Below, one piece after another: positions 45,713-64,000 of a DNA stretch of 64,000 nt. The notes under the pieces were generated by a model. That model saw only the letters and a program-made list of their open reading frames with translations. It was not told where the DNA came from and ran no database searches. This DNA is from K189A clade bacterium. Lineage in GTDB: Bacteria > Pseudomonadota > Gammaproteobacteria > Pseudomonadales > Azotimanducaceae. The DNA is taken from contig CACFGV010000002.1 of the NCBI GenBank assembly GCA_902565895.1, forward strand, positions 1-64,000. Reading direction: 5' to 3'. Positions within the stretch are counted from its first letter, which is position 1. Each line of letters starts with the position of its first letter. Position numbers and translations under genes: made by a program.

Positions 45713-45720
45713 GGGTTATC

Positions 45721-46788
45721 CTAAACATAGTCCGTGCTGTCACCGGCAGACATGATTATTTCACCAGCTTCCTGCAGCTTGCGCGCTTGGCGGACGATAC
45801 TTTTCTGTGCAGCGTCGACTTCGGCAATGGGTTTAGGCGTGGCAACTTCCATGTCGTCCTTCATGACCAAAGCTTGTCGTTCCGACACGTTCTCTAAGAA
45901 GTAGTCAATCAGCTGCTGCGGAGCGCCGCGGAACGCTAACATCAATTCGTCCTGGTCCAGCGCCTGACCTAAGGTCTGCATACTGCGGCGGTCCAACTTT
46001 ATAAAATCCTCGAACTCAAACATATTGTCCTGTATGTCGACTGTAAGCTGCTCGTCAATTTCCTTCAGACCACCAAAAACCTCTTGCTCTAAATCTAGCT
46101 TGGTGCGATTCATAATCTTCGCCGCAGCGCGCACGCCGCCCACGGTCGGGGCCGCTTGAGAGGACATCGAGCTTTGCAGTTGGCGTTGCACAACATTCTC
46201 CAGCTCGGACATTGCGCTGGGTTGCACCGTGTCCAGCAACGCCACTCGACGCATGACTTCGGTGCGCATTTCACTAGGAAGTAGAGCCAGCAATTCTGCA
46301 GCGGTATCTTCTTCAAGCACCGACATGATGATGGCGATGACTTGTGGGTGCTCATCACCAATCATTTCGAAAATATTTTGTGGCGTCATCCAGGCCAGAA
46401 TCTCCAATCCTTTGCTGGACGTGGATGGCAATATGCGGCTTAACACCGAAGCAGACTTTTCTGGCCCCAGCGCGCGCTTCAATACACCCTCAACATAGTC
46501 TTTAGATCCAAGACCTAAGTTGGTCTGGCCTCGCAGCTCACCAATAAACTCGTCGAGCACTTTATCTACCGCACTTTGGGAAACGTCATTTACCGACACC
46601 ATAGCCGTACCAAGAGTCTCGACTTCGTCTCGGTTTAAGTAACCGATTATGTCTGAGGCTTGTTGCTCACCCAGCACCAACATCAGCAGTGCTGCCCGTT
46701 TGGTTGAGTCTAATGCCGCAAGCTCGCGCTCCAGCGCCGAAGGCTCGGGCGGCTTGACTGGTTCGTTCTTTTTATCTTTCTTTGCCAC
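45721..46788 (-). CDS. fliG: Flagellar motor switch protein FliG
   Basis: Torque-generating C-ring protein, 355 aa. LDSTKRAALLMLVLGEQQAS begins the N-domain. The EHPQ motif that binds FliM is intact in IGDEHPQVIAIIMS (about residues 143-156). The C-terminal torque domain keeps the charges aligned with E. coli Lys264 (Arg here), Arg281 and Asp288/Asp289 (AFRGA, SERQ, KDDM), while the Arg297 position is a Pro next to a Lys. Gene order fliF-fliG-fliH is standard. Confidence 0.94.
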   Translation of the reverse strand: MAKKDKKNEPVKPPEPSALERELAALDSTKRAALLMLVLGEQQASDIIGYLNRDEVETLGTAMVSVNDVSQSAVDKVLDEFIGELRGQTNLGLGSKDYVEGVLKRALGPEKSASVLSRILPSTSSKGLEILAWMTPQNIFEMIGDEHPQVIAIIMSVLEEDTAAELLALLPSEMRTEVMRRVALLDTVQPSAMSELENVVQRQLQSSMSSQAAPTVGGVRAAAKIMNRTKLDLEQEVFGGLKEIDEQLTVDIQDNMFEFEDFIKLDRRSMQTLGQALDQDELMLAFRGAPQQLIDYFLENVSERQALVMKDDMEVATPKPIAEVDAAQKSIVRQARKLQEAGEIIMSAGDSTDYV

Positions 46789-46820
46789 GTTAGTTCTCGC
46801 GATTTACTTGGGCAGATGAA

Positions 46821-48581: not shown

Positions 48582-48614
48582 TATTCTACTCTGTAGGTTT
48601 TACTGTTTTGCCTG

Positions 48615-48956
48615 TTAAACCGGCATGTTCATGACGTCGTTATACGACTTAAGCAACTTGTTTCTCACCTGTAGCGTGGCTTCAAAAGCGAGCGACGACT
48701 TCTGCATGGCGAGCACTACATCAGTTAGCGGCACGTCTTCGCCACGCTCGTAGGCGTCACGCATTTCTGCTGCATTCATTTGGGTCTCGTTAACCGCTTC
48801 AACAGCCGTTCGCATGTAGTCGCCAAAGCCTGACTTTTCGGTTTGGTCAACTTGCTGAGTAACCACATCGCTGTTAATCATTTCGGCGCGATCTTGGTAG
48901 GCGCGAATTTGATTCATAAGCGAGCCGACTTTGGCTTGGTATACGCTTTCAATCAT
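48615..48956 (-). CDS. fliE: Flagellar MS-ring/rod junction protein FliE
   Basis: 113-aa protein joining MS ring and rod. The C-terminal half has [21 protein letters not shown] and the FliE signature [20 protein letters not shown] followed by [14 protein letters not shown]. Starts 9 bp after the fleR stop, so the fleR promoter may serve the whole fleR-fliE-F-G-H-I-J run; no separate sigma-54 site was found before fliE. Confidence 0.94.
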
Positions 48957-48965
48957 GCTGTTCCC

Positions 48966-50357
48966 CTAAGCCGTCCGGCGTCGCGGCAACGCCATGCCGC
49001 GCTGACGCATCCGCGCCAGCTTGTAACGCAGCGTGCGTTCGCTAATACCTAGGGCCGCAGCAGCGGCCTGCCGGGTTGGCGACGTACGGATGGTTTCTGC
49101 AATGATGCGAAATTCGTTGGCTTCCATAGCGTCCTGCAGGCCATCGGTTTTTTCAAAACTCGCCGCGGGTGCCGATTGGGCGGCCAAAGGCCCGGCGGTC
49201 ATGTCTGCCACAGGAGGAGTTTGTGCTGTTGGCGCGGGTTCATCAAAAATCAAATATTGGGGCTGAATGACTTCGCCGGTCGTTAACACTATGGCCCGCT
49301 GCACTACGTTTTCGAGCTCGCGGACATTTCCCGGCCAGGTATAGGCCAGCAATTTAGCCACGGCTTCAGGTGAGAACTGCAATGAGCGATTTTCCCGTGA
49401 GTGTTTAAGGATAAAAAAGTTAGCCAGCGGTAAAACATCGTCTAAACGCGCGATCAAACTCGGTACGTTTATACGGAAAGTGCTGATACGGAAGTACAAA
49501 TCCTCCCTGAACGGATTGTCCAAAGCCCCGGATCGTAAGTCCCTATTGGTAGCAGAGACGATCCGTACATCCACTTTGTGAGATTCAGACGAACCTACAG
49601 GGAGAACTTCTTTTTCCTGAATCGCCCGCAGCAATTTTGCTTGCAGCTGCGGTGACAGTTCGCCGACTTCATCTAAGAACAAGGTGCCGCCGTGGGCTTG
49701 GGTGAAAAATCCGTCTGTATTGCGCGTAGCACCCGTAAAGGCGCCGCGCATATGGCCAAACAAAAGGCTTTCCGCCAAGTTCTCTGGTAAGGCGGCACAG
49801 TTCACCGGAATAAATGGACCGTCGCGACGCGGCGAAAAGTCGTGGGCAAGTCGCGCCAATACTTCTTTACCAGAACCAGTAGCTCCTTGTAGCAACACCG
49901 TGACCTCAGACGCACCAACCCGTTCAACCAGGGCTAATAGCTGTTGACTGGTCTCATCTACGAACACATAAGACTCGTATTTAAGCAGACGCAACCGCGC
50001 AGAGGCGGCAACGCTCTGCCAAACGCCACAATCAGCATCCGCAGTGACAACATCATCGACCCCGCTTTTAACGCCCGCGATGGCTGTGTTCAGATCGCTT
50101 TTGTCGACCCGCAAAATCAGATAGACCCGTGGCCCGAGCACATCACGTAGCGCTCGAAGATGACTCTCTAGCGTCCCAACACGGCCTTGAACACAGACCA
50201 CACGAGGGCCGGCCTCGTTCTCGATCAGTTGATTTGCAAGCTGGCTTAACGCGATGGGGCGGGCCCGAAAGCCGCCACTGTTCAGGGCAGCAACAGTCTG
50301 GGCATCCAGATCTGCGCTGTTATCCCAATAAAGCTCAATAGGTTGTGATTCGTACAT
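48966..50357 (-). CDS. fleR: Sigma-54-dependent flagellar regulator, FleR/FlrC-like with pseudo-receiver
   Basis: An enhancer-binding activator of 463 aa. AAA+ domain: Walker A GATGSGKE (158-165), the sigma-54 contact GAFTGA (205-210), Walker B GGTLFLDEVGEL, arginine-finger region FREDLYFRISTFRI. C-terminal Fis-type HTH: RQAAAAALGISERTLRYKL. FleR/FlrC normally carry an N-terminal receiver phosphorylated by FleS/FlrB. Here residues 1-125 have receiver-like length and hydrophobic strands, but the phosphoacceptor strand reads VVCVQG with no Asp and the acidic pair is missing, so phosphorylation is unlikely. No fleS gene lies between fleQ and fleR. A perfect sigma-54 promoter precedes the gene. 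Confidence 0.88.
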   Translation of the reverse strand: MYESQPIELYWDNSADLDAQTVAALNSGGFRARPIALSQLANQLIENEAGPRVVCVQGRVGTLESHLRALRDVLGPRVYLILRVDKSDLNTAIAGVKSGVDDVVTADADCGVWQSVAASARLRLLKYESYVFVDETSQQLLALVERVGASEVTVLLQGATGSGKEVLARLAHDFSPRRDGPFIPVNCAALPENLAESLLFGHMRGAFTGATRNTDGFFTQAHGGTLFLDEVGELSPQLQAKLLRAIQEKEVLPVGSSESHKVDVRIVSATNRDLRSGALDNPFREDLYFRISTFRINVPSLIARLDDVLPLANFFILKHSRENRSLQFSPEAVAKLLAYTWPGNVRELENVVQRAIVLTTGEVIQPQYLIFDEPAPTAQTPPVADMTAGPLAAQSAPAASFEKTDGLQDAMEANEFRIIAETIRTSPTRQAAAAALGISERTLRYKLARMRQRGMALPRRRTA

Positions 50358-50401
50358 GATGTTTGTTCTGCACTCGTTGCCATTACAATTGCCGTGTCTG
50401 A

Positions 50402-50417
50402 AGCAAATGGCGTGCCA
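50402..50417 (-). promoter_or_regulatory. Sigma-54 promoter for fleR (and probably fliE-J)
   Basis: On the minus strand TGGCAC-GCCAT-TTGCT, an exact match to TGGCACG-N4-TTGCW. It sits in the 197-bp gap between fleQ and fleR, 45 bp before the fleR start, with a predicted start near 50390. This fits the Pseudomonas/Vibrio hierarchy in which FleQ activates fleR (known for those genera). Confidence 0.9.
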
Positions 50418-50554
50418 GAAAAAATACCTAGCATTTTCAATAGTTTATATGCAATGTGGCAAGATCTTACAGGCTGAGCATTGCCGGTTGACGAAAATCC
50501 GACGGGGCATAGCCGGCAACTCCACCGCCGTTTATTCGCTTTGGCGATTGCGTG

Positions 50555-51715
50555 CTATGCGACGCGCAATTCGTACTTTTTTATCCGCTCTATGAGTGTC
50601 GTGCGCTGCATTTTTAACAACTTAGCGCAGCGGCTGACATTACCACCGGTCTCCTCAAGAGCGCGCGCGATAAGGTCTTGTTCAATCTCACTGAGCATGC
50701 CCTTAAGCGACTGCCCTCGGGCCCGAAAGTCCTCGTAACCCTGGGCCAGCATGACAATAGATTCAAATTCCTCATCCACCTGGGAGTTTTCAGGCGCGTC
50801 TACCGAGTCCTGAAGAAATTTTTGCGCAGCGACATCGGATGAAGTGTCCACCTGTTCTGCTTCAATTAGGCCCTTGAAAGCATCCGCACCATCATCCCCA
50901 CTGGGGGGCGGCAATTCAGATAGGCCCTCCAGCGCGCCAGGCGGCAGCATGGTCGCGTCGACATCGCACAGGTCGAGCCGTTGGCCCGGATATAAAACCG
51001 ACAGTCGGTGCACAGTATTTGACAGTTCGCGCACATTGCCCGGCCAATCGTAGGCTTGCAGCAGGCTGGATAACCCCGGCGCCAGCGTAATCGGCTGAGC
51101 TGCGGACTTAAGCCCTTCAGCAAAATGTGCAATTAATTCGGGGATTTCTGATCGGCGGTCACGTAACGGTACGACCTGCACAGGCAGTACGTTGAGTCGG
51201 TAAAACAGGTCCGCTCGAAAACGGCCTGCAGCGATCTCGTCTTCAAGATTGCGGTGGGTTGCTGCCACCACACGAATATCGATATCAATCAGCTGATTCG
51301 AGCCTATAGGTGTGACATTGCGCTCTTGCAGCACCCGCAGCAACTTAACCTGCATGCTTAAGGGCATGTCACCGATTTCATCCAAGAACAACGTGCCAGT
51401 ATCAGCTTCTTGCAGCTTACCGCGATGATCGGCAATCGCCCCGGTGAAAGCCCCCTTTTTGTGTCCAAAAAGTTGACTCTCTAACAGGTCCGCGGGAATG
51501 GCGCCGCAGTTGACGGCAATGAACGGCCGATGACGCCTCTCTGACCGGCCATGTATTGCCTGAGCGACCAGTTCCTTGCCACAACCGCTCTCGCCGGTAA
51601 CGAGCACACTCACGTCCGCCGGTGCAATTGAGTCGATCAATTGCTGCAATCGGCGGGTCTTGTCGCTAGAACCGATAATTGTGTGCTGCAAAACAAGTAA
51701 CCTAAAAGGTGACAA
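50555..51715 (-). CDS. fleQ: FleQ-like sigma-54 activator lacking the N-terminal domain
   Basis: Master regulator candidate of the flagellar cascade. 386 aa if begun at TTG 51715; TTG 51691 is an alternative. An in-frame TAA immediately upstream closes the frame, so the REC-like N-terminal domain of FleQ/FlrA (about 130 residues) is truly absent. AAA+: Walker A GESGCGKE (41-48), GAFTGA (88-93), Walker [20 protein letters not shown]-terminal Fis-type [23 protein letters not shown] (in about residues 349-380). The segment before the AAA+ core that in FleQ carries the c-di-GMP-binding LFRS motif reads [12 protein letters not shown] and position upstream of fleR support FleQ; the shortened form is unusual. 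Confidence 0.85.
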
Positions 51716-51923
51716 TTAACTCTAGCCAAATCGACTAAATTTGGCGAGTCCGTCTTTTTTCAAGGACACCAAATGATTCCTTATGGGCGCGGATCATAAG
51801 CCTATCTAATATGCTATCGTCTGCAATCTGTGCACGTGAGCGGCCCGCACGAGGTCAGTCACAGGAAGCTTACGATTTAGGCTGAAATATTATGTTAGAA
51901 AGTTGTCAAGGCTATAATCTAGA
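51716..51923. other. Intergenic region upstream of fleQ
   Basis: 208 bp separating the minus-strand fleQ gene from the plus-strand small membrane protein gene. No sigma-54 or sigma-28 element could be found for fleQ on the minus strand; a TATAAT (51913-51918) lies only 6 bp before the plus-strand start codon and so is not convincing as that gene's promoter. Confidence 0.4.
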
Positions 51924-52205
51924 ATGTCGAATAACCGACAAAATTGGCAGCAGAACACTTTCGCTGCGATGAATGGACTCGGCGGCAGCTGTCGTGCGTG
52001 TAAACTTCTAAGGACGGTTCTCATCTTTCCGTGCGTGACGATCGGCCTTTTCTATCTGGGGTTGAGATCTGGCGGGGATAACAGTCAACTCTTAATTTTA
52101 GTTTCAGATCTGGTAACAATATCAAACGCGCTCGCGGTGCTGGCAATAGGGTTTCCATTGCTACTTCTGGTCAAGTTTTTTTTAGAACGAAAAGACAAGC
52201 AATAG
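51924..52205 (+). CDS. Small membrane protein, unknown function
   Basis: 93 aa: a polar N-terminus with two cysteines (SCRACK, about residues 22-27), then two hydrophobic helices at about 30-46 (TVLIFPCVTIGLFYLGL) and 55-84 (LLILVSDLVTISNALAVLAI and on), and a basic end ERKDKQ. No family recognised. It lies between the fleQ regulator and fliD. A Shine-Dalgarno site is not apparent, and the start is uncertain. It may be real since its composition is clearly that of a membrane protein. Confidence 0.5.
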   Translation: MSNNRQNWQQNTFAAMNGLGGSCRACKLLRTVLIFPCVTIGLFYLGLRSGGDNSQLLILVSDLVTISNALAVLAIGFPLLLLVKFFLERKDKQ

Positions 52206-52234
52206 TCGAAAGCCCGCGTTGAAGGATGCTCGCC

Positions 52235-52261
52235 TCAAGAACTACTCCACTGCTCCGATGT
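52235..52261 (+). promoter_or_regulatory. Possible sigma-28 promoter upstream of fliD
   Basis: TCAAGAAC-N11-TCCGATGT, compared with TAAAGTTT-N11-GCCGATAA. The spacing is exact and the -10 shares CCGAT, but the -35 is poor and fliD begins 340 bp further on, so it is uncertain. Confidence 0.3.
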
Positions 52262-52560
52262 ATTTCAGGCGGTTGGTTTTAATCAAGTGGTTATTTTGAA
52301 CTAGGTAAATGTAATCGGGGTGGGCCGGTCCGAGAGACTCAGCGCCATCTCTGTCGTTTTATTTCTAACCCGCCGCTCTGGCTAAATCGGATTAAATTTA
52401 TATTACCCCGGTTGCTAATATCGACTGAACTTACGGACATCCAAAAGAGCTTGCAGTAAGACAAACAGCGAGCTGCGAATAATTGCAGGCGCAAGTAACC
52501 TGCCCATTTTAACGGAAATTATATGAGAAGATCCTTAATTGGAGGGATTTTACGTAAGCT

Positions 52561-52576
52561 TGGCGCGATTATTGCT
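52561..52576 (+). promoter_or_regulatory. Sigma-54 promoter for fliD
   Basis: TGGCGC-GATTA-TTGCT, one mismatch from TGGCAC-N5-TTGCW. Predicted start near 52588, followed by an AGAGG ribosome-binding site (52591-52595) and ATG 52601. This supports the shorter fliD start. Confidence 0.75.
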
Positions 52577-52600
52577 AGGGATGTAAAAAAAGAGGTACCT

Positions 52601-53977
52601 ATGGCAACCATCGATTACGTCAACGCGCTCAACGCCGGTGCAGGGTTCGATACAAAGGCTCTGGTATCCGCTCTTGTCGAAGCGGAACGAGCACCAAAGA
52701 AAGGTCAAATCGATTCGAAAATGGAGGCAGCGGAGCTAGAGCTTTCAGGAATCGGAAAGGCTGTTTCGGCACTCGGAAGCCTCGATAACCAGCTTCTAAA
52801 GCTTAACGATGCCGTCGACTTTAGTAACATCAATGTAGCCAATACTCAGACTACAGCTTTAACGATTACTGCCAACAGCTTGGCAAAAGAGGCCGTTCAC
52901 GCGGTAACTGTTAATAGCATTGCAGCAGAACGGCGAGAGATTTCAGGATCTTTTACTAGTGCTGATACCGCCATTAACGGCGGTAACGCGTTCGATCTGA
53001 CAATCGCAATAGGGGCATCAAATCCAACATCAACCACCGTCCGCGTTACTTCTGCGACACCCACGGGCGTCGTGAATGCGATAAATGATGCCAATCTTGA
53101 CGTCACTGCCGAGTTGTTACAAACCGGCACCGATGGAACCTACAAAATCCAATTAGTTGGAAAGACTGGGAGCGCCAATACTTTCAGCGTTACTGCGCCT
53201 CCCAGCGATTTGTCATTCACAAGCCTCCAAACTGCATCCGATGCTAGCATCATTGTAGACAGCGTCACATTCACGAGAGCGTCGAACACTTTCAACGATG
53301 TAATAACCGGGGCAACTATCGCCCTGCACACGGCCACCTCTGGGGCAGCAAACGTCACTTTTAACAATGATAAAAGTGCACTAAAAGATGAACTAAAAAG
53401 TTTTGTGACAACCGCGAACGAGACGCTTACAACATTAAAATCTCTTACAGATCGAGCCAGCGGAGGAGAGTTGGCTGGAAATACGGTTGCAAGACAAATC
53501 GAAAGGCAAATTAAGGATACTTTGACAGGTATTTCGTCCACACCGGGTAACTCGATCACACGGTTATCGGACATCGGTATAAGAATCACAAAAACTGGCG
53601 TGTTAGAACTCGACGAGACCACCTTGGACACAGCACTGGCGGCTAATTATGAGGACATCGTTACCATGTTCAGTGCAGACACGAACGCGCAGACTAACGC
53701 GGGCGATGCAAACAGGGGAATAGCGGGCGACCTTTCAAAATACATAAAAGACCTATCAAGCTCGACAGGCTACTTCACCACACGGATAAACACGGTGAAC
53801 GACAATGTCACTAAATTCGGCGAGGATCTAACGGCATTAGAGTCCAAACTCCTTAGGTTAGAGCAGCGGTACACTGCACAGTTCGCGGCAATGGCTCGAG
53901 TTGTCAATGAAATGAATACTCTCGGAGATAGCCTGACGAGCACTTTCGAGAATCTACCGTACAACAATAGAGACTAG
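52601..53977 (+). CDS. fliD: Flagellar filament cap protein FliD (HAP2)
   Basis: Caps the filament tip and folds exported flagellin. From ATG 52601 (MATIDYVNALNAGAGFDTK) it is 458 aa. The N-terminal FliD domain has GAGFDTKALVSALVEAERAP with a following long helix. The middle is beta-rich and Thr/Ser-rich. The C-terminal domain has LSDIGIRITKTGVLELDE, FLAN-type repeats and a final coiled coil with TRINTVNDNVTKFGEDLTAL and YTAQFAAMARVVNEMN, all usual for FliD. It is followed by flagellin rather than by fliS, which is not present here. Base composition is more A+T-rich than the housekeeping genes. Confidence 0.94.
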   Translation: MATIDYVNALNAGAGFDTKALVSALVEAERAPKKGQIDSKMEAAELELSGIGKAVSALGSLDNQLLKLNDAVDFSNINVANTQTTALTITANSLAKEAVHAVTVNSIAAERREISGSFTSADTAINGGNAFDLTIAIGASNPTSTTVRVTSATPTGVVNAINDANLDVTAELLQTGTDGTYKIQLVGKTGSANTFSVTAPPSDLSFTSLQTASDASIIVDSVTFTRASNTFNDVITGATIALHTATSGAANVTFNNDKSALKDELKSFVTTANETLTTLKSLTDRASGGELAGNTVARQIERQIKDTLTGISSTPGNSITRLSDIGIRITKTGVLELDETTLDTALAANYEDIVTMFSADTNAQTNAGDANRGIAGDLSKYIKDLSSSTGYFTTRINTVNDNVTKFGEDLTALESKLLRLEQRYTAQFAAMARVVNEMNTLGDSLTSTFENLPYNNRD

Positions 53978-54354
53978 ATTAATCAACGCACCGCAACAAT
54001 CGGGCGGCTGTGTCACAACTATGGGATGGGATTCGGTAGTGTGTCGGCACAGTAATCTAGTCACTAAAGCCTGAAATCCCGCCAAAGGTTTCAAAGCTGT
54101 AATACAGCTTAGTTCCAAGACCCTGAACGGCTAAGTGAACAGCGACCTGGCCACCTAAACAGCCAAAAACCATGCCGACTCCGGCAATACTTTGCCTTTG
54201 GGAGTGCGCGCCCGGCAAAAACGATCCTGTTTGCAATAAACACTACAACCACTCTAAAGAAACGAGTGTCGATGACGATATCTCTGGTGTAGACATTTTG
54301 GGAGACGCGGACGCGTAAAGCGTCAGCGAAACTAACCAATGGAGATATCTGAAA
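53978..54354. other. Intergenic region between fliD and flagellin A
   Basis: 377 bp with no supported gene. It contains the sigma-28 promoter at 54255-54281 and a leader with GACGC-GTAAA-GCGTC (54310-54324), a small hairpin upstream of the flagellin ribosome-binding site GGAGA (54341-54345). Confidence 0.6.
54255..54281 (+). promoter_or_regulatory. Sigma-28 (FliA) promoter of flagellin A
   Basis: TAAAGAAA (54255-54262), 11 bp, GACGATAT (54274-54281), against the consensus TAAAGTTT-N11-GCCGATAA. The spacing is exact. The predicted leader is about 67 bases. Confidence 0.85.
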
Positions 54355-56574
54355 ATGTCCGTTTACATAAACACCAACACAATGTCGTTGACGGCTCAGC
54401 GTGCCCTGTCGAATGCGCAGGATATGCAAGCTACAGCTATGGAAAGACTTTCCACCGGCAAGCGGATCAACTCCGCAGCAGACGACTCAGCTGGTTTGGC
54501 GATTGCCGAAAAATTCACCGCTCAAATTAATGGGCTTAACCAAGCAGTAAAGAACGCTTCTGCCGCTGACAACCTTGCTCAAACAGCAGAGTCAGCCTTA
54601 GTAGAGATCACTGACATCGTTCAGCGCATGAGAGAGTTAACCGTTCAAGCGTCTAACTCAACCTTATCTGCGAGCGACCGAAGTGCCATCAAATCTGAAC
54701 TCAACACGCTCACCTCTGAAATCGATCGGATCGCAGGCGATACTAAGTACAACGATATCTCCTTACTTGACGGCACAGCAAAGCTGTCTTTCCAAATCGG
54801 AACAGAAGCTTCGTCAAAGATGCAGCTGAACATCGCCAGCTCAACGTCTTCGGCCTTGGGCTTGGGCAGTGGCGCAGGTGGTTCTGTTGACGCAACCGTG
54901 GTTGGGGGCATCGTCTCTACTGTGGCCGGCACAGTCCTAGATGCTGACGATCTTTTGATCAACGGCCAAAACTGGTGGAGTGGCGATCAAACGCCAACCC
55001 ATGAATATGAGGGCCAACAGTTCACTCGACCCCAGAATTTAGACTTTGACGGAACCAGTGCTGCACGTGATCTTGCTATGGCGATCAATACCAACACTCA
55101 CCTGCACGGCGTAACAGCTGGCGCTCGTACTGTTTTTGAAGGACAAAAAGCCGGTGGCGTTACTGACGGTACAGTAACCCTTACTATTGCTTCATTCGAC
55201 GGATCAGCCGACCTCGCTCACGAGATCGGACCAACCAGCAATATGCAAGAGCTGGCTGCAGAGATCTCCAGTAAAGACTCCTTCGTAACTGCAACCGTAA
55301 AAGCAGACGGCGGATTGAGAATCGTTGATGACCTTGGCCGTCAGCTTACGTTTGCCAACAGCAGCACAGCCACAACTGGCTTCTCCGCTACAGAGAGCCG
55401 TCAAGGATTTCTTTATCTGACAAGCAACGACGGTTCTGCAATTACACTCGCAGCTGGAACTGACGCAGACGGCGACTCCGACACGGATGACATCGCAAAC
55501 ATGGGTCTGCGCGTTGGTACCTATGGCGGCGGTGATAACGGCACGACACACACACTCGTAGGTGAGCACATCGTTAACACCACATCAATCACAGGCGTAC
55601 ACGACCTAACCGTCAATGGCGTGCAAATTGGACGCACAGATCCCCTGGTTGCTGACGACGAAATCCAGGCCAGTGACCTCGCAGCGGCTGTCAATAGCGT
55701 CGCACAGCAATCAGGCGTAACCGCAACCGCCAGCAACGAGTTGTTCTTGTACTTAGCTACGGGCGCGACATTAGGTACATCGGCTGTAAGCGCTACTGGG
55801 TTCCTCCTAAACGGTGCGCAACTGGCTTCGGGCGGCGCGAACGGGACATTCTCGACGTTGGCGACCGAGATCAACACGGACATGGCCGCTATCGGTTCGG
55901 ATATCCGTGCTGAGGTCTACGACAACACCCGCGGTGTAATAAAACTCACTTCTGCGTCTGGCGCCTCTATCGAGTTGACAGACACTGCGGACAACAACAT
56001 CAAAGCGGTTGAGCGTGCCGACGGAAGTAACTTGATCGACACCAAGGCAAGTTCTCTGTCAGACATCGCTACAACAAAAACTACCTTCACAGGTAAGTTG
56101 ACCTTCACCAGCGAGACCGGACCAATCACTTTTGGAATGGCGAACTATGCTGCGTCTATCGATGTTGCTGACACGCTTGCGAACGGTGGTGGTGATGCGG
56201 TAGCTGATCTACTCGGTGTGGTCATCACAGGCGATCCTTCCAGTGCGAGCTCGTCAGGTGGATCGACAAGTGGCATTAATGTGTCCAGTGCTTCTGCCGC
56301 GGCTTCAAGCATTGCGTCAATCGACGCTGCATTGGCTAAGGTAAGTGCAAGCCGTGCCGACCTAGGCGCTATGTCGAACCGACTGGCACACACAGTTAGC
56401 AACTTGCAAACCATCTCAGAGCAACACTCTGAGTCAAGGGCTGCAATCCAGGACGCTGACTACGCTGTTGAATCTGCTGCGCTTGCGCGCGCACAGGTGC
56501 TGGCTCAAGCAGGTACAGCGATGTTGGCCCAGGCTAACGCTGCACCTCAGCTGGCTCTGCAACTTCTCCAGTAG
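54355..56574 (+). CDS. fliC: Flagellin A
   Basis: Filament subunit of 739 aa, large for a flagellin (E. coli types are about 350-600). Conserved D0/D1 N-terminus: INTNTMSLTAQRALSNAQ, ERLSTGKRINSAADDSAGLA, AADNLAQTAESALVEITDI, and RMRELTVQASNSTLS; the fold continues to about residue 145. The C-terminal D1/D0 has SRADLGAMSNRLAHTVSNLQ and ends AQANAAPQLALQLLQ. The middle 500 residues are Thr/Ser/Ala/Gly-rich and contain an Asp-rich stretch DADGDSDTDDI. It lies in a 2,262-bp repeat shared with flagellin B and differs from it at residues 2-3 and in a short C-terminal patch (about 675-688). It has its own sigma-28 promoter and terminator. Confidence 0.97.
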   Translation: MSVYINTNTMSLTAQRALSNAQDMQATAMERLSTGKRINSAADDSAGLAIAEKFTAQINGLNQAVKNASAADNLAQTAESALVEITDIVQRMRELTVQASNSTLSASDRSAIKSELNTLTSEIDRIAGDTKYNDISLLDGTAKLSFQIGTEASSKMQLNIASSTSSALGLGSGAGGSVDATVVGGIVSTVAGTVLDADDLLINGQNWWSGDQTPTHEYEGQQFTRPQNLDFDGTSAARDLAMAINTNTHLHGVTAGARTVFEGQKAGGVTDGTVTLTIASFDGSADLAHEIGPTSNMQELAAEISSKDSFVTATVKADGGLRIVDDLGRQLTFANSSTATTGFSATESRQGFLYLTSNDGSAITLAAGTDADGDSDTDDIANMGLRVGTYGGGDNGTTHTLVGEHIVNTTSITGVHDLTVNGVQIGRTDPLVADDEIQASDLAAAVNSVAQQSGVTATASNELFLYLATGATLGTSAVSATGFLLNGAQLASGGANGTFSTLATEINTDMAAIGSDIRAEVYDNTRGVIKLTSASGASIELTDTADNNIKAVERADGSNLIDTKASSLSDIATTKTTFTGKLTFTSETGPITFGMANYAASIDVADTLANGGGDAVADLLGVVITGDPSSASSSGGSTSGINVSSASAAASSIASIDAALAKVSASRADLGAMSNRLAHTVSNLQTISEQHSESRAAIQDADYAVESAALARAQVLAQAGTAMLAQANAAPQLALQLLQ

Positions 56575-56625
56575 CAGATCCGCTAAGGCCAAGAAAACCG
56601 CCGAACGAAAGTTCGGCGGTTTTTT
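54364..56625 (+). repeat. Direct repeat copy 1 (flagellin A coding region and terminator)
   Basis: Sequence equal to 59019-61280 at a constant offset of 4,655 bp, from the third flagellin codon onward through the terminator. Only the patch 56376-56419 differs, with about 16 mismatches in 44 bp. I compared blocks by eye and used identity of reading frames on the opposite strand as a check of synonymous sites; a full alignment was not run. Confidence 0.9.
56594..56625 (+). terminator. Rho-independent terminator of flagellin A
   Basis: AAAACCGCCGAAC, loop GAAA, GTTCGGCGGTTTTTT: a 9-bp G+C-rich stem (extended by A-T pairs) followed by six T. It lies 20 bp past the flagellin stop. The same element ends flagellin B. 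Confidence 0.95.
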
Positions 56626-57053
56626 CTTTGTAGAGCACGGAAAATTACCCCCCGCCGCTAACTGGTATCCTTACGTCTTTGCACGATTCGCGAGACGTTT
56701 TCGGATAAATTTTCTCTAGGTACGGATAAGTCACACTGGCCCATAACCCCCAGCAAAAGGTCGGCTGATGCCGCTGTATATAAACCCGTATGGAGGTTGG
56801 TTCGTAAAGACACACCGAACTGATTCGCTTGAATTTTGCAAACTGCTCTTTAGCCAACAAGCTTTTCAGACGATCCAGCATGTTTTTGAAAGCGGCCAAA
56901 TGATATCACCTTTAGGGCGTAATATTATTCAGCTACTCTTGACCTTTAATTTATTTCAAATAAGACCTCTTTCAAGCGGCGCTATATCTGTCAAATGGAG
57001 CGACTTTAAAACTGCAAAGTGCTTTGATGCGCGCATCTTAAGTTGGAGATTCG
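56626..57053. other. Intergenic region before the first TPR-methyltransferase
   Basis: About 430 bp, A+T-richer than the housekeeping genes. A 97-codon open frame (56768-57061) exists but has no ribosome-binding site or recognisable domain, and I do not accept it as a gene. No sigma-28 or sigma-54 promoter was found for the methyltransferase. Confidence 0.5.
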
Positions 57054-58259
57054 ATGAGTAGGTCATCTGTGTTGCCGGAACGCGTATGGAACGAGGTAAT
57101 GGCTCTCTTCCGAAGGAACGAATTTCGGGATGTAACTGTCCGCGGCGGCGAACTCATGAAGGAGTACGCTAACGACGATCGAATTTACAATCTTGTTGGC
57201 CTTGCGCACGCCGAACTTAGGAATTACCAGCTTGCCATTGCAACCTTCGAACAGCTGCTGACGCGCCAACCTAACTGCGTTCCAATCCTGAATAATTTGG
57301 GGAAGACACTGATTTCCACGGGGCGGCCGAAACAAGCGATAGCACTTCTCAAGAAAGCGCAGAAACTGCGTCCCGACAGCGGGGAAATCAGCAATAACTT
57401 GGGAAATGCGTGGAAAGCGCTTGGAAAGAAATCCGAATCGCTGAAGCATTATAAGCGCGCCATCAGGCTCAATCCGAAAATCGCAGAAGCTCATAAAAAT
57501 ATTGGAGTCTGGTACCGCGAGGCCGGGGACTACGAAGCCGCGAAAAAAGCGTACCGCAGAGCTTTAGAAATCAAACCGAATTACCCCGCCGCACAATTCG
57601 CTCTGGATGCACTCACGGGCAAAAATGTCCCCTCTCCTCCTCGAGCAGTAGTTGAGGGGCTGTTTGATGAATATGCGCCCAATTTCGAAAAATCGCTATT
57701 ACTCAAACTCGATTACGCGGCACCGGACGCCATCAGGGAGCTTGTAGAATCGTATGAAAAAAATGAGTCTAGGGTTAACGCCGTTGATTTGGGTTGTGGG
57801 ACGGGCCTACTCGGGGCATCTGTGAAGCATATTTTCGCTGAGCTAGAAGGCGTGGATGTTTCTGCGGAAATGTTGAAAGTGGCTGTTGAAAAAAATGCTT
57901 ACAAGCAGCTGTGGCACGCAGATATTATTCAATATCTGCGCAACGGGTCTCTATCGTTCGATTATTTCTTTGCAGCAGATGTCTTTATCTATATCGGTGA
58001 CCTTAGCGAAGTTTTTGAATTGGTAAAAACCAGAAACGACCGAACCGGCCGATTCGTATTCTCAATAGAGACGAGCCAAGAAGACGGTTATCAGTTAGGC
58101 CGTAGCGGTCGGTATGCTCACAATCCCTCGTACATTAAGAAACTTTGCGACACTTTTGATTACAAAATTCTTCATCGAGCCGATCTTACCCTACGAAAAG
58201 AACGAGAAAGTAACGTTTTGGGCTCTATATATATGTTAGAATTTCAAGTGCGTAATTGA
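57054..58259 (+). CDS. TPR-repeat SAM-dependent methyltransferase, candidate flagellin modification enzyme
   Basis: 401 aa. Residues about 44-180 form four tetratricopeptide repeats (LVGLAHAELRNYQLAIATFE; LNNLGKTLISTGRPKQAIAL; NLGNAWKALGKKSESLKHYK; NIGVWYREAGDYEAAKKAYR). A linker with VVEGLFDEYAPNFEKSL leads to a class I methyltransferase domain; motif I is VDLGCGTGLLG (244-254), followed by EGVDVSAEMLKVA. The target is not known. Because it stands between two flagellin genes, each ended by its own terminator, modification of flagellin or of a glycan on it is inferred. FliB, the lysine methylase of Salmonella flagellin, is a different family. Start ATG 57054 follows GGAG at 57047. Confidence 0.85.
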   Translation: MSRSSVLPERVWNEVMALFRRNEFRDVTVRGGELMKEYANDDRIYNLVGLAHAELRNYQLAIATFEQLLTRQPNCVPILNNLGKTLISTGRPKQAIALLKKAQKLRPDSGEISNNLGNAWKALGKKSESLKHYKRAIRLNPKIAEAHKNIGVWYREAGDYEAAKKAYRRALEIKPNYPAAQFALDALTGKNVPSPPRAVVEGLFDEYAPNFEKSLLLKLDYAAPDAIRELVESYEKNESRVNAVDLGCGTGLLGASVKHIFAELEGVDVSAEMLKVAVEKNAYKQLWHADIIQYLRNGSLSFDYFFAADVFIYIGDLSEVFELVKTRNDRTGRFVFSIETSQEDGYQLGRSGRYAHNPSYIKKLCDTFDYKILHRADLTLRKERESNVLGSIYMLEFQVRN

Positions 58260-58951
58260 GTAATCATCGAACAAACACTAATCAATCGGGTTTTTGCCCA
58301 TGATTCCTGTTCATTCGAAAATTAATCCGCTATGAGGTGTTTAACCGTTAACAGGCCACCAAGATCACGACCTCTCCAAAGTGCAAAGGTAATTCAGAAG
58401 GCAGCCACGCAATTAGAGCAAAGCACTAAAGTTTCATCGTTTTAACCCGACTATATTCTTGCCTTGGGGGCTGTCTACAACACGCTGTCTCCCAAAAGAA
58501 GCAAAGCCCCCGAGGCCTTTACTTTTGGGAGACCGTGTTGTGCTTACCGTTAGGCATCCTCGTCCGCCTGAGCCGACACCAACACACCTAGGCATCGCTA
58601 TCCTCGCCCTTAATGCGCGCTCAAAAAAATCTGACGTGGCCGGTTACCATAATTTTTGGCGACACCACCCAGAGCCTCTCGAGTCCAGTCTACCGCAACT
58701 TACTTATCTTGCTCGCACACCACATCGCGCATAGCCATCAATCGCGGAGGCCCTAGCGCCCTTTTCCCGCCATTTCGAAAAACCATGGATACTTAGTTTT
58801 GGTCGTAAATTTTAAAAAGGCAAAACGCTGCAGTTGTGTCCACATTTATCGAAACACTTTAGAACGGTATGCGTACGGCGGCAGTATTTTTCCTTGGATC
58901 CCGTTTAAGCGGCATAATTTTTCCGCTTAGAGAATTAGTCAGAATTTCGGT
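58260..58951. other. Long intergenic region upstream of flagellin B
   Basis: About 690 bp without a supported gene. It contains an imperfect long inverted repeat (58477-58541). Open frames here (for instance 58459-58734) read through that repeat and resemble no protein. No transposase remnant was recognised. Confidence 0.5.
58477..58541. repeat. Long imperfect inverted repeat
   Basis: Arm 1 (58477-58498) begins ACAACACG and ends GTCTCCCAAAAG, with two extra bases CT between. Arm 2 (58522-58541) is the exact complement of arm 1 without CT. The loop is 23 bases and rich in C and G. A 20-bp stem with one bulge lies about 220 bp after the methyltransferase stop. It could be a processed RNA hairpin, a terminator without T-run, or a relic of a mobile element. 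Confidence 0.75.
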
Positions 58952-58978
58952 TAAAGAAATTGAGGGTCGAGACGATAA
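58952..58978 (+). promoter_or_regulatory. Sigma-28 (FliA) promoter of flagellin B
   Basis: TAAAGAAA (58952-58959), 11 bp, GACGATAA (58971-58978). Seven of eight -10 bases match GCCGATAA. The leader would be about 25 bases with GGGAG at 58998-59002. Confidence 0.9.
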
Positions 58979-59009
58979 CTCTCCCGTAGACAACTTTGGG
59001 AGACAAAAC

Positions 59010-61229
59010 ATGACTATCTACATAAACACCAACACAATGTCGTTGACGGCTCAGCGTGCCCTGTCGAATGCGCAGGATATGCAAGCTACAGCTATGGAAA
59101 GACTTTCCACCGGCAAGCGGATCAACTCCGCAGCAGACGACTCAGCTGGTTTGGCGATTGCCGAAAAATTCACCGCTCAAATTAATGGGCTTAACCAAGC
59201 AGTAAAGAACGCTTCTGCCGCTGACAACCTTGCTCAAACAGCAGAGTCAGCCTTAGTAGAGATCACTGACATCGTTCAGCGCATGAGAGAGTTAACCGTT
59301 CAAGCGTCTAACTCAACCTTATCTGCGAGCGACCGAAGTGCCATCAAATCTGAACTCAACACGCTCACCTCTGAAATCGATCGGATCGCAGGCGATACTA
59401 AGTACAACGATATCTCCTTACTTGACGGCACAGCAAAGCTGTCTTTCCAAATCGGAACAGAAGCTTCGTCAAAGATGCAGCTGAACATCGCCAGCTCAAC
59501 GTCTTCGGCCTTGGGCTTGGGCAGTGGCGCAGGTGGTTCTGTTGACGCAACCGTGGTTGGGGGCATCGTCTCTACTGTGGCCGGCACAGTCCTAGATGCT
59601 GACGATCTTTTGATCAACGGCCAAAACTGGTGGAGTGGCGATCAAACGCCAACCCATGAATATGAGGGCCAACAGTTCACTCGACCCCAGAATTTAGACT
59701 TTGACGGAACCAGTGCTGCACGTGATCTTGCTATGGCGATCAATACCAACACTCACCTGCACGGCGTAACAGCTGGCGCTCGTACTGTTTTTGAAGGACA
59801 AAAAGCCGGTGGCGTTACTGACGGTACAGTAACCCTTACTATTGCTTCATTCGACGGATCAGCCGACCTCGCTCACGAGATCGGACCAACCAGCAATATG
59901 CAAGAGCTGGCTGCAGAGATCTCCAGTAAAGACTCCTTCGTAACTGCAACCGTAAAAGCAGACGGCGGATTGAGAATCGTTGATGACCTTGGCCGTCAGC
60001 TTACGTTTGCCAACAGCAGCACAGCCACAACTGGCTTCTCCGCTACAGAGAGCCGTCAAGGATTTCTTTATCTGACAAGCAACGACGGTTCTGCAATTAC
60101 ACTCGCAGCTGGAACTGACGCAGACGGCGACTCCGACACGGATGACATCGCAAACATGGGTCTGCGCGTTGGTACCTATGGCGGCGGTGATAACGGCACG
60201 ACACACACACTCGTAGGTGAGCACATCGTTAACACCACATCAATCACAGGCGTACACGACCTAACCGTCAATGGCGTGCAAATTGGACGCACAGATCCCC
60301 TGGTTGCTGACGACGAAATCCAGGCCAGTGACCTCGCAGCGGCTGTCAATAGCGTCGCACAGCAATCAGGCGTAACCGCAACCGCCAGCAACGAGTTGTT
60401 CTTGTACTTAGCTACGGGCGCGACATTAGGTACATCGGCTGTAAGCGCTACTGGGTTCCTCCTAAACGGTGCGCAACTGGCTTCGGGCGGCGCGAACGGG
60501 ACATTCTCGACGTTGGCGACCGAGATCAACACGGACATGGCCGCTATCGGTTCGGATATCCGTGCTGAGGTCTACGACAACACCCGCGGTGTAATAAAAC
60601 TCACTTCTGCGTCTGGCGCCTCTATCGAGTTGACAGACACTGCGGACAACAACATCAAAGCGGTTGAGCGTGCCGACGGAAGTAACTTGATCGACACCAA
60701 GGCAAGTTCTCTGTCAGACATCGCTACAACAAAAACTACCTTCACAGGTAAGTTGACCTTCACCAGCGAGACCGGACCAATCACTTTTGGAATGGCGAAC
60801 TATGCTGCGTCTATCGATGTTGCTGACACGCTTGCGAACGGTGGTGGTGATGCGGTAGCTGATCTACTCGGTGTGGTCATCACAGGCGATCCTTCCAGTG
60901 CGAGCTCGTCAGGTGGATCGACAAGTGGCATTAATGTGTCCAGTGCTTCTGCCGCGGCTTCAAGCATTGCGTCAATCGACGCTGCATTGGCTAAGGTAAG
61001 TGCAAGCCGTGCCGACCTAGGCGCTATGTCCAACCGCCTAGACCATACCATCAGCAACTTACGAGCCGTTTCCCAGCAACACTCTGAGTCAAGGGCTGCA
61101 ATCCAGGACGCTGACTACGCTGTTGAATCTGCTGCGCTTGCGCGCGCACAGGTGCTGGCTCAAGCAGGTACAGCGATGTTGGCCCAGGCTAACGCTGCAC
61201 CTCAGCTGGCTCTGCAACTTCTCCAGTAG
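59010..61229 (+). CDS. fliC2: Flagellin B, near-identical copy of flagellin A
   Basis: 739 aa from ATG 59010 (MTIYINTNTMSLTAQ), behind GGGAG. The frame is open for 47 codons upstream, but these cover the sigma-28 promoter. Apart from residues 2-3 and a C-terminal patch, where it reads NRLDHTISNLRAVSQQ against NRLAHTVSNLQTISEQ in A, the protein equals flagellin A. The B patch is closer to the usual flagellin sequence NRLDHTISNL. Promoter and leader are distinct from A, so the two copies can be expressed at different levels. Followed by the same terminator. Confidence 0.97.
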   Translation: MTIYINTNTMSLTAQRALSNAQDMQATAMERLSTGKRINSAADDSAGLAIAEKFTAQINGLNQAVKNASAADNLAQTAESALVEITDIVQRMRELTVQASNSTLSASDRSAIKSELNTLTSEIDRIAGDTKYNDISLLDGTAKLSFQIGTEASSKMQLNIASSTSSALGLGSGAGGSVDATVVGGIVSTVAGTVLDADDLLINGQNWWSGDQTPTHEYEGQQFTRPQNLDFDGTSAARDLAMAINTNTHLHGVTAGARTVFEGQKAGGVTDGTVTLTIASFDGSADLAHEIGPTSNMQELAAEISSKDSFVTATVKADGGLRIVDDLGRQLTFANSSTATTGFSATESRQGFLYLTSNDGSAITLAAGTDADGDSDTDDIANMGLRVGTYGGGDNGTTHTLVGEHIVNTTSITGVHDLTVNGVQIGRTDPLVADDEIQASDLAAAVNSVAQQSGVTATASNELFLYLATGATLGTSAVSATGFLLNGAQLASGGANGTFSTLATEINTDMAAIGSDIRAEVYDNTRGVIKLTSASGASIELTDTADNNIKAVERADGSNLIDTKASSLSDIATTKTTFTGKLTFTSETGPITFGMANYAASIDVADTLANGGGDAVADLLGVVITGDPSSASSSGGSTSGINVSSASAAASSIASIDAALAKVSASRADLGAMSNRLDHTISNLRAVSQQHSESRAAIQDADYAVESAALARAQVLAQAGTAMLAQANAAPQLALQLLQ

Positions 61230-61280
61230 CAGATCCGCTAAGGCCAAGAAAACCGCCGAACGAAAGTTCGGCGGTTTTTT
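59019..61280 (+). repeat. Direct repeat copy 2 (flagellin B coding region and terminator)
   Basis: Partner of 54364-56625. Identity ends sharply: upstream at the second/third codon, and downstream within the T-run of the terminator. The only internal difference is 61031-61074. Recombination between the copies would delete or amplify the 4.66-kb unit that includes the first TPR-methyltransferase gene. Confidence 0.9.
61249..61280 (+). terminator. Rho-independent terminator of flagellin B
   Basis: Same stem as after flagellin A (ACCGCCGAAC, GAAA loop, GTTCGGCGGT), here followed by a run of eight T, two longer than in copy A. Confidence 0.95.
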
Positions 61281-61414
61281 TTGGTCTGGATTTTTTCTTA
61301 ACCGCACGGATATCACGCGGCAGCCTAATCTCTATCAAGCGCGATTTTTTGCAACAAAACTTGATATCTCGGCACATCCATTTAGATTTGGGCTGCTTTA
61401 TTTGAGAAGCCGCC

Positions 61415-61633
61415 ATGGCCACCCGTCCTCCGAGCAGACTCCTTCCTCTAGAAATTGCAGCGCAGAACGGCTCTTTCTTCGAGACACTTTCTGACCTAGA
61501 TCGATCATTATTGAATGGTCGGGGATTCCTTGAGCTCGCTACAAAAGTGATACTTTCAAGCGATTCACCGAAAGCCAAAATCGACGAAATCGAGCAATTT
61601 TTTGCAATGATCCTAGCGATACGGAGCTCGTAA
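61415..61633 (+). pseudogene. 5' part of the second TPR-methyltransferase gene, separated by a frameshift
   Basis: A 72-codon frame from ATG 61415 that stops at TAA 61631-61633. Up to DEIEQFF its composition is like the N-terminus of a helical protein. After the run of six T at 61598-61603 the useful reading passes to the frame of the large downstream gene (NDPSDTELVSAFGELL before its first ATG). A -1 shift at the T6 run would give one protein of about 695 aa. This could be a natural frameshift, a slippage-switched gene, or a base-calling error. Confidence 0.6.
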
Positions 61634-61653
61634 GCGCTTTCGGCGAGCTATTA

Positions 61654-63498
61654 ATGCACTGCGGGGAACATGGCCTTGCCAAAAAGATAATTCATCAAGC
61701 CGTTACGACAAAAGAAACATGTGCTATTGCGCAGTCCCGATTGTCTCTACTTTTACTTGCCGAAGGAGATGCCGATAGGTCTGTCTCTACCATAGAGTCA
61801 GCACTAGAGAACGATCCGAAAAACGCTGACTTACACGAGATCGCCGGTGACATTAAGAGAAAATTGGGCAGGACCATAGAGGCACTCTCCCACCACCAAG
61901 CGGCCCGTCAACTTCAACCTGACGAACCAAGACATTCACTGAAGCTTGGCAACATCTTTATCGAGGATCGGCCAGCCCCTTACAATGCAGTTTTAGAGAG
62001 GCTTTTTCTGGATTTAATGCGGAAAAGCGATGGAGTGCGATATGACCAGGATTACTGGAGCTACGCGGAGCTTCTGCTTACTCAAAATCCCAAAACTAAA
62101 GATCTATTTTCAAAAGCCGAATCCGACAAAAAGTTCATCGCTTATGTAGCAAGCTGCATCGTGGAGCAGCCCCTATTGGTCGCTTGTCTTACCAGTTTTC
62201 CGATTCCCAACCTGGAATTAGAACGGTCCATCACCAACCTTCGTAAGGCTCTGCTGCTTGCCGAGGTGGAGCTTAAAGATTTACAAGATCGGCTTTTCGT
62301 ACTCTCAATGATCTCGATTCAATGTCTTTTGAACGACTTTATCTATGCAGAGACCACCAGCGAAACGGAAAAGGCTGCGGAACTAGAAGGTCGTTTGGAT
62401 GCACGGATTCGCTGTGCCGAGGATATTAATCTGGATGATCTCTTACTTTTAGCCTGCTATCGGCGTTTAGCTCAAAAGGACTGGTCTTCCGCTTACTATG
62501 AAAGTAACCGGGAAAAATTTACCAGCGAGGTGTGGTTTAAGTTTCACTTCGCGGATCCAATTCAAGAACGCGCTATCGCAAAGACAATCCCACAACTAAC
62601 AAAACTCAAAAACAATACTTCAGAAATTGTGCGAGCAATGTACGAAGAAAGCCCGTATCCAAAATGGACGAGCGCTGCTTACAGATCAAATTTGGATTTT
62701 TACCGAGCATTCAGACGACTGGGGCTCAGGCTACCGGAAGACGACGGCTTTGATTTAAGTAATCCGTCAATACTTGTTGCTGGTTGCGGCACAGGACGAA
62801 CGGCTTTCGAGTACGTGTCTATGACCAACAAAGCAGTAATCGCGATTGACCTCAGCAGGGCAAGCCTTGCGTACGGGTCGCGAAAACAAATCGAAAGCTC
62901 TTGTCGAAATATCGAATGGTATCAAGCTGACATAATGTCTTTGGCCCCAGTTGATCGGACGTTCGAGCTTATAGACTGCTGCGGGGTCTTGCATCACTTA
63001 GAGAAGCCCAGGTCCGGACTTAACGCCCTAGTCAACCTTATTAAGCCGGGAGGGCTTTTTAAAATAGCCCTCTACAGTCAAGCGGCGCGCAGATCTCTAG
63101 CGGGGTACAGAAAACTCTTCAAAAATTTAAAGCTCGAAAACACCGAAGCAGGCAGAAGAAACTTCAGAGAAATTCTGCTGAAGGATGAATCTGACGAAAA
63201 AACTCTCGGGTTAACAAGGTGGAGAGATTTTTTTTCGGGTAACGAATTCAGAGACCTTTTATTTCATCCCCAAGAGCATCTCTACACAGTGCCCGAATTA
63301 GAGACCCTCCTGGAAAATTCAGGTTTGAGATTTCTGAGTTTCGATTTCGGCGGTGCTAACCAAGCAATCTATCAGGCGTTGAAAACACAAGCGGGTGAAG
63401 GCTTCTCTCCAGAATCGCTCCGATCATGGGCGCCGGTAGAAGAAGCCAACCCAGACCTCTTTAGTTCCATGTACGTTTTTTGGGCGCAGAAAATTTAG
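61654..63498 (+). CDS. TPR-type SAM-dependent methyltransferase, second candidate flagellin modification enzyme
   Basis: 614 aa from ATG 61654. Helical repeat region in about residues 1-100 (LLLLAEGDADRSVSTIESAL; HEIAGDIKRKLGRTIEALSH), a helical middle, then MYEESPYPKW (329-338), a motif I recall in TPR-methyltransferases, and a class I domain with motif I ILVAGCGTGRTAFEY (373-387), AIDLSRASLAYG, and CCGVLHHLEKPRSGLNAL. Upstream codons in the same frame to about 61600 also look coding, so the true gene probably starts at 61415 in another frame. It lies between flagellin B and the third flagellin, repeating the flagellin-methyltransferase alternation. No own promoter was found. Confidence 0.85.
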   Translation: MHCGEHGLAKKIIHQAVTTKETCAIAQSRLSLLLLAEGDADRSVSTIESALENDPKNADLHEIAGDIKRKLGRTIEALSHHQAARQLQPDEPRHSLKLGNIFIEDRPAPYNAVLERLFLDLMRKSDGVRYDQDYWSYAELLLTQNPKTKDLFSKAESDKKFIAYVASCIVEQPLLVACLTSFPIPNLELERSITNLRKALLLAEVELKDLQDRLFVLSMISIQCLLNDFIYAETTSETEKAAELEGRLDARIRCAEDINLDDLLLLACYRRLAQKDWSSAYYESNREKFTSEVWFKFHFADPIQERAIAKTIPQLTKLKNNTSEIVRAMYEESPYPKWTSAAYRSNLDFYRAFRRLGLRLPEDDGFDLSNPSILVAGCGTGRTAFEYVSMTNKAVIAIDLSRASLAYGSRKQIESSCRNIEWYQADIMSLAPVDRTFELIDCCGVLHHLEKPRSGLNALVNLIKPGGLFKIALYSQAARRSLAGYRKLFKNLKLENTEAGRRNFREILLKDESDEKTLGLTRWRDFFSGNEFRDLLFHPQEHLYTVPELETLLENSGLRFLSFDFGGANQAIYQALKTQAGEGFSPESLRSWAPVEEANPDLFSSMYVFWAQKI

Positions 63499-63697
63499 AG
63501 ATACGCTTACTGCGGCGACAACACGCGCAACTTTTCCTAACCCTCAGCGCATCCAAAAACTCAAAAATCCCTTTAGTCCCGACTACGTCAGCAGCAGCCG
63601 CTGAAAATTCCTCAAACATCGGCCGGATCAAAATCTGGGCTGCCCCTTAATCGCGCGTCTAGTTGCCCTCGCCGCTGAATATTTCTACTAAATTTGC

Positions 63698-63724
63698 TCA
63701 AGTTTTCCTGTTTTGCTCCGATAA
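63698..63724 (+). promoter_or_regulatory. Sigma-28 (FliA) promoter of the third flagellin
   Basis: TCAAGTTT (63698-63705), 11 bp, TCCGATAA (63717-63724): seven of eight matches in each half to TAAAGTTT and GCCGATAA, with the exact spacing. Confidence 0.9.
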
Positions 63725-63735
63725 CGGCGAAGTAA

Positions 63736-63776
63736 CCGGCAATAAATTGCCGCAATTTTCGGCAAGTTATTGCCGG
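63736..63776 (+). promoter_or_regulatory. Strong stem-loop in the 5' leader of the third flagellin
   Basis: CCGGCAATAA-A-TTGCCG, loop CAATTTT, CGGCAA-G-TTATTGCCGG: a 17-bp stem with one A/G mismatch and a 7-base loop. It begins about five bases after the expected transcription start and ends 8 bp before the AAGGAG ribosome-binding site (63785-63790). Such a 5'-end stem could stabilise the mRNA or control translation; it lacks the T-run of a terminator. Confidence 0.9.
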
Positions 63777-63796
63777 CCAATATAAAGGAGCAAAAA

Positions 63797-64000
63797 ATGA
63801 GCATATCTATAAACACAGCCAGTATTTACAGCAATTTCAGTAACTTACGTAATTTAAGCCGCGAAATTGAGGAGAGCGCATTAAGAATTTCTACGGGCTC
63901 TCAAATGAACCACGCTAGAGACAACGTAGGAGGCTTACACTCATCAATAACGCTGCGCGCTGGTGCTTCAGCGGCCCTGCGATACGCAAAAAATGCCTCC
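63797..64000 (+). CDS. Divergent flagellin-like protein (N-terminal part, runs off the window)
   Basis: 68 codons from ATG 63797 behind AAGGAG. The start MSISINTASIYSNFSNLR and EESALRISTGSQMNHARDN follow the flagellin N-terminal pattern (INTN...L..S..RLSTG..IN.A.DD). The usual D-D-A/S-A-G-L is replaced by RDNVGGL. This marks a distant paralogue, perhaps a minor filament or junction subunit. It has a sigma-28 promoter and a leader stem-loop. Alternative reading: an FlgL-type junction protein, less likely because FlgL begins with R-I-S-T-x-Q. Confidence 0.8.
   Translation, partial: MSISINTASIYSNFSNLRNLSREIEESALRISTGSQMNHARDNVGGLHSSITLRAGASAALRYAKNAS

Follow-up and report, generated by a model that had tools for sequence, protein, structure and literature searches.

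Two nearly identical flagellin genes in a K189A clade bacterium, probably homogenised by gene conversion around a 44-bp island

Roughly every second flagellated species is said to possess more than a single flagellin gene, and in most cases it is unknown why (PMC6299084). In Alteromonadales, the fla genes are described as undergoing long-lasting concerted evolution, with flagellin paralogs among the genes kept alike at both synonymous and non-synonymous sites and with tandem duplication noted as an alternative for fla (PMC6053082). That study deals with concerted evolution over the full length of the genes, whereas in the locus described here a short tract and the leaders are spared. The flaA and flaB genes of Campylobacter jejuni are likewise neighbouring flagellin genes with different promoters, between which recombination is reported (PMC5126078). 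These two genes are 95% identical and are transcribed from sigma28 (flaA) and sigma54 (flaB) promoters, while the present copies differ beyond codon 3 in only one 44-bp island and have promoters that both look sigma28-type. Shewanella putrefaciens and S. oneidensis assemble two similar flagellins, FlaA and FlaB (86% and 89% identical), into one filament, and in S. putrefaciens filaments made of one or both flagellins differ in their mechanics (PMC6299084, PMC11839096). Most of the differences in S. putrefaciens are placed by these reports in the surface-facing variable region, which in the present pair is identical. A comparable retention of highly divergent regions despite apparent gene conversion is reported for the GOT1p1 and GOT1p2 genes of Tigriopus (PMC3728101), but these are copepod (animal) genes of different function. 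A flagellin pair differing only in helix CD1 was not found in the open-licence literature, as judged by titles and abstract openings. The process proposed below is of a known kind, and one detail of it is unusual and testable.

The window (the whole stretch of DNA analysed, 64,000 nucleotides) contains two flagellin genes on the forward strand, copy 1 at 54355..56574, found as an open reading frame and by Pfam scan, and copy 2 at 59010..61229, found as an open reading frame and by comparison with copy 1, each encoding 739 residues. The domains were scanned in copy 1, from which copy 2 differs by 8 residues, and both domains that mark a bacterial flagellin were found, namely Flagellin_N (PF00669; E 4.1e-40, 137.5 bits, cut-off 26.6) and Flagellin_C (PF00700; E 1.3e-20, 73.9 bits, cut-off 23). 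Pairwise alignment of 54364-56625 with 59019-61280, 2262 bp each, gives 16 mismatches, all of them inside 44 bp (56376-56419 in copy 1, 61031-61074 in copy 2), and the other 2218 sites are all equal. By a rough formula, the probability that 16 random mismatches would fall within one stretch of this length is about 1e-23. The identical stretch starts with codon 4, after 4 differing sites in codons 2 and 3, and continues as far as the T-run of a hairpin terminator common to both copies (56594..56625 and 61249-61280, forward strand, identified by reading the sequence); beyond both ends of the 2262-bp repeat, similarity stops at once. The proteins differ at residues 2, 3, 678, 681, 685, 686, 687 and 689, the last six of these eight lying in the island. 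The sequence-only reading had described a near-identity over 2.26 kb that is broken by a single 44-bp island of about 16 mismatches and that reaches through the terminator, and the full alignment bears out each of these points exactly. Its further remark that the flanks differ also stands, as upstream of the promoter no clear similarity between the copies is seen.

The filament cap gene fliD (52523..53977, forward; FliD_C E 4.7e-43, FliD_N E 5.5e-13) is directly upstream of copy 1, and each flagellin copy is followed by a gene with a methyltransferase domain and TPR repeats, the repeats being weak in the second. The first (57054..58259, forward; TPR_1 E 2.7e-29, Methyltransf_25 E 4.9e-08) stands between the copies and the second (61654..63498, forward; Methyltransf_25 E 2e-15) downstream of copy 2; as a guess, both could possibly encode flagellin-modifying enzymes. 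No full-length relative of the second was found in 39 other genomes of the genus. Divergent flagellin-like genes are present on the same contig at 63797-65251, past the window end, and on another contig at C51:6462-7703, where the gene is cut by the contig end, with 33% and 36% identity in the matched parts. A further flagellin gene of the same genome (C2 86494-88281, reverse strand; L040:1094-2881) lies between flgB and flgC, an arrangement also seen in five genomes of the genus; its first 170 residues are 99.4% identical to those of the corresponding flagellin in one of the genomes compared (G004), the DNA of the region being 80.8% identical. One 16S gene was found in the genome.

Upstream of both flagellin copies, the sequence TAAA-N15-GACGATA matches the consensus of what is presumably a sigma28 promoter. 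Promoters of this type are usual for filament genes. In copy 1, promoter and leader occupy 54255..54306 (forward; TAAA-N15-GACGATA followed by GTAGACA and TTTTGGGAGAC) and in copy 2 they occupy 58952..59004 (forward), each delimited by alignment with the other. The two blocks are equal in 44 of 54 aligned columns, with 7 mismatches and 3 gapped columns, and longer upstream pieces align with a score of 63.9 against 29.9 +- 4.8 (best 47.6) in 1000 mononucleotide shuffles. The earlier claim that promoters and leaders differ is correct in that their sequences have diverged, but they are homologous. The common leader block ends in TTTGGGAGAC, which is separated from the start codon by 48 nt in copy 1 (spacer 54307..54354, forward, delimited by leader alignment and folding) and by 5 nt in copy 2. 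Within the copy 1 spacer are a small hairpin, GACGC-GTAAA-GCGTC, and a second Shine-Dalgarno-like GGAG, and these 43 extra nucleotides with their hairpin and ribosome-binding-like site suggest that translation of the two copies may be controlled differently. A scan of 50 flagellin starts (3 from this genome and 47 from other genomes) flagged both copies and one further gene, L094, whose leader has a single GTAGACA and lacks a sigma28 match; the leader block itself was not found upstream of the 47 starts from other genomes.

The intergenic DNA between the copies holds another hairpin at 58477-58541 (folded region 58440-58580, z-score -3.45), which contains both strands of the 10-mer TTTGGGAGAC of the flagellin leaders, so that one of its arms is complementary to the leaders, including the Shine-Dalgarno-like site of copy 2. 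The 10-mer occurs four times in 97 kb of contig, always within 54297-58995, and elsewhere in the genome the hairpin has matches of only 14-15 nt. It is possibly a regulatory RNA or the remnant of a rearranged leader; a search of 44000-64000 against Rfam at gathering thresholds found nothing.

The contrast between leader and gene body carries the main argument. At 0 of 2218 sites the bodies differ, against 7 of 51 ungapped sites in the leaders and 16 of 44 in the island, so that divergence of the body, synonymous sites included, lies far below that of its homologous flanks, as in homogenised paralogs. Since the leaders are homologous and diverged while the bodies are not, the duplication appears older than the identity of the bodies, and a fresh duplication is argued against as the whole story. 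A recent duplication with no conversion, after which the island alone changed, would also be expected to leave an identical body, but it does not account for leaders with 7 differences in 51 ungapped sites plus indels: at the leader distance, 0 differences in 2218 sites would have a chance near 1e-142 in a calculation that ignores selection. Such a duplication would moreover have to end, in a contrived manner, exactly at codon 4 and at the terminator, beside diverged promoters of the same family, and it is considered very improbable.

Conversion of an old flagellin pair is the reading that is held to be likely, whichever way the island arose, and the process is deduced from the identity pattern together with the leader homology. 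An old duplication that included promoter and leader would have produced two sigma28-driven flagellin genes, and recombination between the direct repeats would then have copied the coding body and terminator of one gene onto the other, leaving the promoter, the leader and codons 2-3 outside the latest conversion tract or tracts. The island would either have been skipped, retaining a very old divergence, or have been acquired afterwards by a short conversion from another flagellin. Gene conversion between the paralogs, which the sequence-only reading had proposed, is well supported by the homologous leaders set against the identical bodies; the same reading spoke of repeated conversion, and the repetition is not needed, as one full-length event or two tracts suffice. 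Deletion or amplification of the 4655-bp unit by recombination, also suggested there, is plausible. The pair was not found in a second individual or species, with one genome available per species, and the events therefore cannot be ordered. Among 57 other genomes no clear ortholog pair was found, the best full-length flagellin matches in them reaching up to 39% identity. A homology scan of genome contigs gave 30 loci at 38-54% identity, from other named organisms.

The conversion reading is also compatible with a contribution from assembly. The genome, probably a metagenome assembly, is in 87 contigs and about 69% complete, and its consensus may have been smoothed: true differences of single bases, scattered over the copies, would have been masked by the assembler, whereas leaders and island were too dissimilar to be merged. 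Besides this fragmentation, metaSPAdes is described as collapsing most strain differences as bulges and as using pre-collapse paths to resolve repeats (PMC8021871), and in five fetched cases a relative's contig breaks off within a flagellin gene, which makes a perfect 2.26-kb repeat within a short-read contig unexpected. Against this explanation, a difference closer than one k-mer to a branch that stayed unmerged should be unable to form a bulge of its own. About 220 bp beside the leader, the island and the 3' end (at k = 55) would then be expected to keep their differences, and zero are seen there. Mosaic pairs are also present in single-contig genomes. In one of these (L161) identical runs surround a diverged centre, in another (L169) the diverged centre is larger, and in a third (L163) the pair is 97% identical with scattered changes; in all three, the upstream regions are less alike than the genes. 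Masking by the assembler is accordingly judged unlikely, though with a chance large enough to be kept in mind; assembly may have contributed to the exact zero, and the 220 bp suggest that strong homogenisation would hold even if the exact zero did not. The case also serves as a warning that long repeats which look perfect in a fragmented assembly may conceal minor differences.

The island covers codons 674-689, as pairwise and codon comparison show, in the version SNRLAHTVSNLQTISE in copy 1 (56376..56419, forward) and SNRLDHTISNLRAVSQ in copy 2 (61031..61074, forward). It had been said to alter residues near 675-688, and the changes are found at 678, 681, 685, 686, 687 and 689. The 16 differences are distributed as 10 at third, 4 at first and 2 at second codon positions, and of the 13 codons affected, 7 encode the same residue in both copies. 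The whole 48 nt of codons 674-689 diverge by 0.33, which falls inside what other flagellin pairs of one genome show (mean 0.226 over 77 pairs; up to 0.42 among the pairs listed). The third-position bias and the synonymous codons indicate divergence under purifying selection and not adenine-targeted mutation, and the island is best read as a diverged in-frame homologue shaped by such selection. A diversity-generating retroelement, or some other targeted mutagenesis of the CD1 segment, could account for differences so tightly clustered in a filament protein, but A is absent from both copies at 5 of the 16 differences, 10 are at third positions, the segment sits in a conserved core helix, and in the genome, which is 69% complete, no third copy resembling a template came up with 76-nt queries. 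With neither adenine-limited substitution nor a template repeat, the marks of a retroelement target, this explanation can practically be set aside.

For the origin of the island, a relic that conversion passed over and a later import are about equally probable. The import version of the preferred explanation, in which a third flagellin, from the same cell or another species, passed its 44-bp tract to one copy after the bodies had become identical, is a serious possibility that falls short of being probable. It needs one long and one short event, while a relic requires either patchy repair or a pair of conversion tracts that stop on either side of the 44 bp. The two versions match each other at 28 of 44 positions, no closer than they match some flagellins of other genomes, which speaks against a simple relic: copy 1 matches one flagellin from a different genome of the order (L084) at 32 positions and two others (L114 and L081) at 30, and copy 2 matches L086 and L084 at 30, although these are the best of 130 distinct 44-nt segments from the fetched flagellins, own included, and as partly a result of maximum selection make a weak test. 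The leaders, furthermore, are 86% alike while the island is far apart (7/51 against 16/44), and if leader and island came from one duplication, the island should not exceed the leader in divergence by so much. At residue 678, copy 1 has Ala and copy 2 has Asp; among 92 other flagellins, Ala occurs at this position in 1 and Asp or Glu in 71, and the rarity of the copy 1 residue also fits import.

The searches for a donor count against import. Queries of 76 nt with both versions found no second copy in the own genome (69% complete), and 60-nt queries with both versions found nothing close outside the pair among 390 genomes sampled from the order, the own genome and few of the same genus included. 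The copy 1 version likewise had no match in the 39 other genomes of the genus, leaving it without a donor among 40 with the own genome. At E <= 0.01, the searches gave 7 matches of 19-24 nt outside the pair, and none of these 7 loci shows a flagellin C-terminus by motif. Recombination across 36% divergence would in addition need matching flanks. In viral contigs, 5 stretches fitted a pattern, none of which was confirmed.

The same segment was compared in a survey of 127 flagellins and 90 in-genome pairs, own included, from a sample chosen for multi-flagellin genomes, into which a few genomes entered twice (e.g. G002 as L091 and L144, and G004 as L092 and L147). Leaving out the own pairs, 77 pairs have under 80 differences within the final 210 nt; in these, 0.226 of the sites in the CD1 segment differ and 0.259 of those downstream, and the idea of CD1 as a recurrent spot of divergence between flagellin twins is unsupported. 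Eight other pairs with fewer C-terminal differences have CD1 segments that are identical by residue and so offer no independent example of a CD1 island. The island appears to be a single case, and no general rule of CD1 diversification is seen in these sequences.

The position of the island can be related to that of known Salmonella mutations. The Salmonella flagellin 1ucu aligns without gaps to the C-terminus of a Pectobacterium flagellin, and the latter and the present protein each have 70 residues from LGA to the end, so that the FliC number equals the residue number minus 245. The island corresponds to FliC 429-444, in helix CD1, and the changed residues to FliC 433, 436, 440, 441, 442 and 444. 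A structure prediction from 16 sequences is too poor for a fold search (mean pLDDT 51, pTM 0.37), its usable part being a C-terminal helix at 644-738 with blocks 671-680 and 681-690 at 84 and 80; this rough model of low overall confidence places the island in that long helix. In Salmonella FliC, filaments become curly with N433D, straight and left-handed with G426A, and straight and right-handed with A449V (PMC3605589). Those mutations affect the CD1 helix, and the present island covers FliC 429-444, residue 433 included, but they are mutants of one flagellin in another background and not a natural gene pair. Residues 431 and 433 reportedly point towards adjacent subunits, and motility is wholly or mostly lost in the double mutants N430D-N433D and N430E-N433E (PMC4938411); the outer domains D2 and D3, in turn, may be considered unnecessary for switching (PMC5643327).

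By analogy with these mutants, an effect of the island on filament shape is a fair hypothesis. The outcome of the proposed conversion would be two near-isogenic flagellins that share the filament surface but differ in one segment of a core helix that influences supercoiling. That selection holds the 16-residue CD1 segment different while conversion equalises the surface and other contacts is decidedly unlikely, an estimate that applies jointly to a selected CD1 difference, a differing preference for twist and the tuning of shape by ratio. If it were true, the bacterium would tune the shape of its filament through the ratio of subunits supplied by two sigma28 promoters with different leaders. 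As 8 of the 739 residues distinguish the two proteins, 6 of which lie in a helix tied to filament polymorphism, the effect of this segment would be testable with nearly everything else equal.
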